Of a DNA stretch of 64,000 bases, positions 11,986-12,846 are shown piece after piece (position 1 is the stretch's first letter; every line of letters starts with the position of its first letter). This DNA is from Acidobacteriota bacterium (lineage in GTDB: Bacteria > Acidobacteriota > JAAYUB01), in contig JAAYUB010000098.1 in the NCBI GenBank assembly GCA_012517875.1, forward strand, positions 1 to 64,000. The letters are read 5' to 3'. A model generated the notes under the pieces. That model was not told the origin of the DNA and searched no databases. It was given only the letters and a program-made list of their open reading frames with translations. The position numbers were made by a program, and so were the translations under genes.

Positions 11986-12043
11986 CGGCCGGCGCCGGCC
12001 GGGCATCCCGGCGGCGCCGCCGCCGCCCGAGAAGAGGACCATC

Positions 12044-12271
12044 ATGGAGCCGACCGCCGTCACCGACCGGGACCGGGCCATGGCCCGGCGCTGCGTGGAG
12101 TGCCCCGTCTGCACACGGGCCCGGCGCCGCCAGCGCGGGTTGGCCTACTGGTTTGTCCGCCGGATCGAAGCGAGCGTCTGTCCGTATTGCCGTGCCTACG
12201 AGCGGGTCTACGACCGCAAGGCGCACGAGCCGGTGCCGAATGAGCCGGATGTCGCGTCAATGTATCGATGA
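12044..12271 (+). CDS. Small Cys-rich (zinc-binding-like) hypothetical protein
   Basis: 75 residues from ATG 12044 with a GAAGAGG just upstream. Two Cys pairs (CVECPVC and CPYC) separated by about 27 residues could form one zinc site. The middle is basic (RARRRQRGLAYWFVRRIEA). The product is soluble with no signal sequence. It is just after the tRNA-Ala terminator and ends about 70 bp before the convergent candidate selenoprotein gene. I recognise no family; it could be a small nucleic-acid-binding or redox protein. Confidence 0.55.
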   Translation: MEPTAVTDRDRAMARRCVECPVCTRARRRQRGLAYWFVRRIEASVCPYCRAYERVYDRKAHEPVPNEPDVASMYR

Positions 12272-12342: not shown

Positions 12343-12567
12343 TCACGCCTCGGGATCGGCGGACGTCGGGGGGGTGCTGCGGGATTTGTCGGGCTTGGCG
12401 CCTCCGCCGGAGGCGATGAGCCAACCCATCCCGCCGCCCAGCAGCACGGCGAGGTACGGGTTGCCGGTGATGCCTCAGGTGGATCCGGCGCAGGCCGACA
12501 GATAATGAAACAGGAAGCCTGCGGCGGCTCCGATCACGACGGCCGCGGCTTGTTTGAGAATGCTCAT
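12343..12567 (-). CDS. Candidate selenoprotein: small two-helix membrane protein with in-frame TGA
   Basis: 74 codons from ATG 12567 with GGGAGG eight bases upstream, ending TGA 12345-12343. Codon 31 (12477-12475) is TGA. Residues 5-23 (KQAAAVVIGAAAGFLFHYL) form one membrane helix and residues about 40-55 (LAVLLGGGMGWLIA) a second. The segment around the TGA reads CAGST-TGA-GITGNPY. Small two-helix proteins that I recall as DUF6132 carry GC-x-x-G-x-C-x-ITSNP here, so the TGA replaces the second conserved Cys. The mRNA from +12 to +53 after the TGA can fold into an imperfect 18-pair hairpin with an 8-nt apical loop beginning with G, like bacterial SECIS elements. The alternative is a simple Cys-to-stop mutation. 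No Sec machinery genes are in the window. Confidence 0.65.
12422..12463 (-). promoter_or_regulatory. SECIS-like hairpin after in-frame TGA
   Basis: Reading the minus strand from 12463 to 12422, the arms CAACCCGU and AUGGGUUG form the base. The stem then continues CC/GG and CGCCGU/GCGGCG with a bulged A and a bulged U, closing on an 8-nt loop (GCUGCUGG). The loop begins 30 nt after the TGA, within the usual bacterial SECIS spacing. High GC makes chance hairpins common, so this supports but does not prove selenocysteine insertion. Confidence 0.5.
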
Positions 12568-12715
12568 GGAACCAGCCTCCCGGAGCGGATTAGCCGTGGC
12601 TGGGGTGGCATGGCCCCGCTCCGCTCAACGAGATGGATGCCTGAAATCCGCACCGGATTCTCGATACCCGCCCGATCGCCGGCCGCCCACGTTGGCGAGA
12701 CACCGGGGCGCCGCC

Positions 12716-12758: not shown

Positions 12759-12846
12759 TGGTGCCGAAGGGGGGACTTGAACCCCCACGGCCACATTGGC
12801 CACTAGACCCTGAACCTAGCGTGTCTGCCAATTCCACCACTTCGGC
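12759..12846 (-). tRNA. tRNA-Leu (CAG)
   Basis: 88 nt with CCA encoded and a long variable arm (about GTGGCCAATGTGGCC), as expected for Leu. Acceptor GCCGAAG pairs with CTTCGGC; anticodon loop TTCAGGG gives anticodon CAG; T arm GGGGG TTCAAGT CCCCC. Confidence 0.97.

Follow-up and report, generated by a model that had tools for sequence, protein, structure and literature searches.

Selenocysteine (Sec) usually marks a protein's reactive residue. A recent table of prokaryotic selenoproteins holds 119 families and subfamilies (PMC13188914, 2026), and the same paper points to a study of groundwater in which more candidates, still unvalidated, were proposed. Of the selenoproteins listed there (PMC13188914), we compare two with the present locus: TsoB, which is like a rhodanese/DsbD fusion and carries a UxxxxU motif, and the YeeE/YedE selenoproteins, both of which probably belong to membrane-linked thiol or sulfur systems.

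Here we describe a gene on the minus strand of a 64,000-nucleotide stretch of DNA (the window). We read it, with a probability of about 0.87, as encoding a selenocysteine-containing member of DUF6132 that carries Cys26 and Sec31 in the loop of a 74-residue helical hairpin. The four-residue spacing of the predicted C-x4-U pair is shared with TsoB, and a link to thiol or sulfur chemistry at the membrane is likewise probable; TsoB and YeeE/YedE differ from it in their domains, and we liken them by description, claiming no homology.

DUF6132 is not listed in the table of PMC13188914, and earlier notice elsewhere is possible; among the papers searched by text, DUF6132 is named in a single one, on an unrelated subject, and PF19628 in none. 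Whether DUF6132 is a selenoprotein family that earlier lists lack, with a minimal protein of two helices that relays thiol/selenol or sulfane-sulfur at the membrane and whose Sec arose or persisted in two or more lineages of one phylum, is in our judgement an even call. The listed prokaryotic selenoprotein families number only ~120, and genes of this sort are either annotated automatically as truncated or overlooked. In kind this would be a further selenoprotein, and if true, its 74 residues would place it among very small membrane selenoproteins; the gain lies in the family and the residue indicated, as a Sec site would make the uncharacterised DUF6132 a redox protein open to testing and pinpoint the residue to mutate.

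The gene and its family

The gene (12567-12343, minus strand) encodes a predicted 74-residue, two-helix membrane protein whose codon 31 is TGA (12477-12475). Its reading frame runs from an ATG at 12567-12565 through 30 sense codons, the TGA and 43 sense codons to a terminal TGA at 12345-12343 (codon 75). The features at the locus are as follows:

12343 to 12567, minus strand: gene for a DUF6132-type small membrane protein, Sec predicted at codon 31; 74 amino acids plus stop, conserved in loci L049 and L050 of two related genomes
12475 to 12477, minus strand: in-frame TGA, codon 31, predicted selenocysteine; TGA in genomes G000, G001, G002, G003 and G065, TGC or TGT in 16 Cys homologues
12490 to 12492, minus strand: codon for Cys26, partner in C-x4-U (alignments A1 and A2); absent from G065
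12420 to 12465, minus strand: bSECIS-like hairpin with apical loop at 12445-12438 (GCUGCUGG), 29 nt past the UGA; weak by itself
12576 to 12580, minus strand: Shine-Dalgarno-like GGAGG, 8 nt ahead of the ATG, from sequence
12493 to 12549, minus strand: first predicted transmembrane helix, codons 7-25, from structure model and hydrophobicity
12406 to 12456, minus strand: second predicted transmembrane helix, codons 38-54, from structure model and hydrophobicity
12762 to 12846, minus strand: tRNA-Leu directly upstream, a flank outside the protein gene

With Sec at codon 31, translation predicts MSILKQAAAVVIGAAAGFLFHYLSACAGSTUGITGNPYLAVLLGGGMGWLIASGGGAKPDKSRSTPPTSADPEA. A preliminary description of this DNA, which named no strand for the gene, had reported a good ribosome site and start, two membrane helices, and a TGA at the second Cys of the C-x4-C motif of DUF6132, and each of these points holds. 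The GGAGG at 12580-12576 is followed by 8 nt and the ATG at 12567; a low-confidence single-sequence structure model (pLDDT 64) places helices at residues 3-27 and 37-54, and the sequence has two hydrophobic stretches; and alignments of homologues bear out the C-x4-[U/C] motif. Because positive charges are confined to the N-terminus and the C-terminal tail, the positive-inside rule suggests that the loop carrying Cys26 and Sec31 faces the periplasm.

With codon 31 written as Cys, the protein matches the Pfam family DUF6132 (PF19628) over residues 3-53, spanning the TGA (8e-6; 25.9 bits, cut-off 23.2). When the stop was left in, a six-frame search of the genome gave 20.5 bits (cut-off 23.2), and in that search the TGA gene, flagged '1 TGA', was the genome's sole DUF6132 copy. 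The interhelical C-x4-C pair of the family is present as C26 and U31, with Sec replacing the second Cys. Length, two helices, the C-x4-C loop and a following [IL]-T-x-x-P-like stretch are shared with the Cys form of PF19628; by contrast, the gene described here has Sec (TGA) at the second Cys, a C-terminal tail of ~17 residues, and no thioredoxin/rhodanese operon around it. The G003 and G065 homologues alone fall below the Pfam DUF6132 cut-off and were detected with profiles built in this analysis. No NCBIfam model fits the protein (a match to LptG was spurious and rejected), a PDB sequence search returned no relative with known structure, and no relatives were found on plasmids or in viral contigs.

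Conservation of the in-frame TGA

The TGA is common to all three genomes of the genus, which were assembled separately: that of the window (G000), G002 (locus L049) and G001 (locus L050). Synteny extends across the genus, with the stretch around the gene ~95% identical. Between the window and L049, all 78 bases of the 26 codons that follow the TGA (codons 32-57) are identical, compared with 71% identity over the next 17 codons, 65% in the downstream intergenic region and 83% in the upstream one; for recA and for a TrkA-type gene the figure is 96-97%. G001 shows two peculiarities: the first 11 codons of its Sec-DUF6132 gene are swapped for a different hydrophobic start, and, in this genome only, a nucleotidyltransferase and HEPN pair resembling an MNT/HEPN toxin-antitoxin system separates that gene from the tRNA-Leu (L050:3445-4172).

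The TGA also reaches beyond the genus. In G003, which belongs to the same family and another genus, the protein is ~31% identical and retains SSCTGST-TGA-G. The likeness of G000 and G003 after the TGA exists in frame only, with a BLOSUM score of 54 that none of 100,000 shuffles equalled, against 23 and -2 in the other frames. G065, from another, distant lineage of the phylum, reads SQKIGST-TGA-ALMCNP, with the TGA retained and the first Cys lost; its sequence contains 18 N within the first helix. The G065 gene (L097:4372-4531) has a Cys four residues past Sec (U-x3-C), with which Sec might form another redox pair. Across two surveys covering ~400 genomes of one phylum, the clear DUF6132 homologues carry no stop or TGA at the site, and an extra TAA flagged in G065 by one survey lies outside the homologous match. 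In all 16 Cys homologues read, the codon is a Cys codon (TGC in 11, TGT in 5), in line with a check proposed earlier, and Trp never appears there in the alignment.

These comparisons bear on two explanations that would do away with Sec. The assemblies are drafts, and the preliminary description had allowed that the true codon at 12475-12477 might be TGC or TGT. Because the TGA recurs identically in the separately assembled genomes of the two congeners, G001 and G002, and also in G003 with its diverged homologue and in G065 of the other lineage, a sequencing or assembly error is practically refuted. The second explanation is a pseudogene, in which a TGC or TGT mutated to a real stop in an ancestor and the remainder is decaying. 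A single base change would suffice for this, and termination at codon 31 would leave a 30-residue product, a single helix. However, the 78 bases after the TGA are unchanged in L049 while flanks have diverged by 29-35%, frame and protein likeness hold as far as the much-diverged G003, the TGA is independently present in G065, and no stop other than TGA occurs at the site among the clear homologues surveyed. We therefore consider decay very unlikely.

Selenium machinery and the downstream hairpin

A search for Sec genes, also proposed in the preliminary description, found the whole set in the genome: a tRNA-Sec (79.3 bits; called SeC(tca), anticodon TCA, by ARAGORN), selA (474.5 bits), selD (372 bits) and selB, the last split at contig ends, with 320 bits over its first 302 positions at a contig edge and a C-terminal piece on another contig. 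The selD gene (G000:C121:30705-31628, L061) has its own in-frame TGA at the catalytic site (VRCAG-TGA-ASKMSP) and represents a second selenoprotein of the genome; like the DUF6132 gene it has a hairpin downstream of the TGA, and as a well-known enzyme it serves as an internal positive control.

Across genomes, selA accompanies the TGA form, occurring in 5/5 genomes with TGA-DUF6132 and in 4/22 with Cys-DUF6132 (Fisher p 0.0016, kinship ignored); it was found in none of the tested genomes of family f23 or of f27. We detected tRNA-Sec in G000, G001 and G065 and not in G002 or G003, both of them fragmented MAGs in which selA is present; given their selA, we assume that the tRNA gene is missing from the draft sequence. 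In the stretches examined of G000, G002, G003 and G065, no tRNA-Sec lies near selA.

Conservation past the TGA would be explained by read-through of any kind, including one without selenium in which UGA is read as Trp or by a near-cognate tRNA. Yet the homologues have Cys at this site and never Trp, the genome possesses a full set of Sec genes and a selD whose own Sec codon is a TGA, and UGA also stops translation here, since the gene's own terminal codon 75 is TGA. These observations make read-through by another amino acid highly improbable.

The earlier proposal of a candidate selenoprotein is thus supported by the Sec genes, the conservation of the TGA and the Cys in homologues. Two further points raised with it, a SECIS-like hairpin and normal sequence after the TGA, stand as descriptions and add little. 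Folding of the 66 nt that start at the UGA yields -33.9 kcal/mol (z -2.5), and the 8-nt apical loop GCUGCUGG begins with G after a 29-nt spacer, carrying GC instead of the usual GG or GU. Published bSECIS rules call for a loop of 3-9 nt, G in the first two positions, a spacing of 16-37 nt and an MFE of at most -7.5 (PMC13188914 Fig 2A). Hairpins of G000, G001, G002 and G003 pass these rules (that of G003 differs in sequence, its loop being GUCA and its spacing 18 nt) and G065 is without a passing one; 52% of all 1447 TGAs in the window pass a similar test, 38 of them (2.6%) with equal or better energy density. The sequence after the TGA is conserved in frame in relatives, whereas the open frame itself is cheap: in the window, with its 67% GC, at least 43 open codons follow 37% of random TGAs. 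Because such a base composition often produces both features by chance, they carry little weight, and we rejected them as proof of Sec; the case for a selenoprotein rests instead on homology and conservation.

Under the selenoprotein reading, SelB and tRNA-Sec would decode UGA31 as Sec, directed by the hairpin that starts ~12 bases downstream, and Sec insertion at this codon is what we infer from the genomic comparisons. In the predicted product, a helical hairpin, the two membrane helices are joined by a short loop that holds both Cys26 and Sec31.

Probable role and gene neighbourhood

The Sec-DUF6132 genes lie outside redox operons, and the neighbours in the window are the tRNA-Leu, a convergent CxxC ORF and a tRNA-Ala; any inference on function is therefore borrowed from the Cys homologues. 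In family f23, thioredoxin and/or rhodanese motifs occur no more than 700 nt downstream of 31 of the 32 Cys homologues read (domains confirmed on examples). The 32nd, L094, continues unbroken into thioredoxin as a 184-residue open frame from an ATG, which would be a fusion unless translation restarts inside. OsmC-type genes lie close by in L102, L104 and L106 and in one f23 locus, L109, and the remaining loci have unrelated neighbours.

By analogy with these homologues, the protein may act as a membrane relay for thiol/selenol or sulfane-sulfur (persulfide) exchange. Cys26 and Sec31 could cycle between the selenol/thiol and selenenylsulfide states, or carry a persulfide or perselenide, and would thereby serve partners of the thioredoxin or rhodanese type, such as those whose genes neighbour the Cys homologues. 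The preliminary description had left the choice between redox chemistry and metal binding open, and thiol/sulfur redox is the role favoured by the operon context of the Cys homologues. Soft metals can be bound by Cys/Sec pairs, and an RND-type efflux gene apparently lies upstream in some f23 loci, as judged from ORFs alone; the Sec reading could then be right and the protein bind a metal or cofactor at the membrane instead of exchanging thiols or sulfur. However, what recurs downstream in f23 is thioredoxin and rhodanese, one homologue shares its frame with a thioredoxin, and OsmC occurs elsewhere, so a metal role seems to us rather unlikely, if less so than the explanations without Sec.

Several side observations concern the neighbourhoods. 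Loci L020-L025, L067-L094 and L110-L115 of f23 show a conserved cluster of DUF6132(Cys), thioredoxin and a membrane-anchored rhodanese, apparently often downstream of the RND-type efflux gene, and in L094 and L113 one open frame spans DUF6132 and thioredoxin. In the window, the ORF convergent to the Sec gene (12042-12271, plus strand) encodes 75 amino acids with two C-x2-C motifs (CVECPVC and CPYC); it has no Pfam match and is ~88-90% conserved in two relatives.
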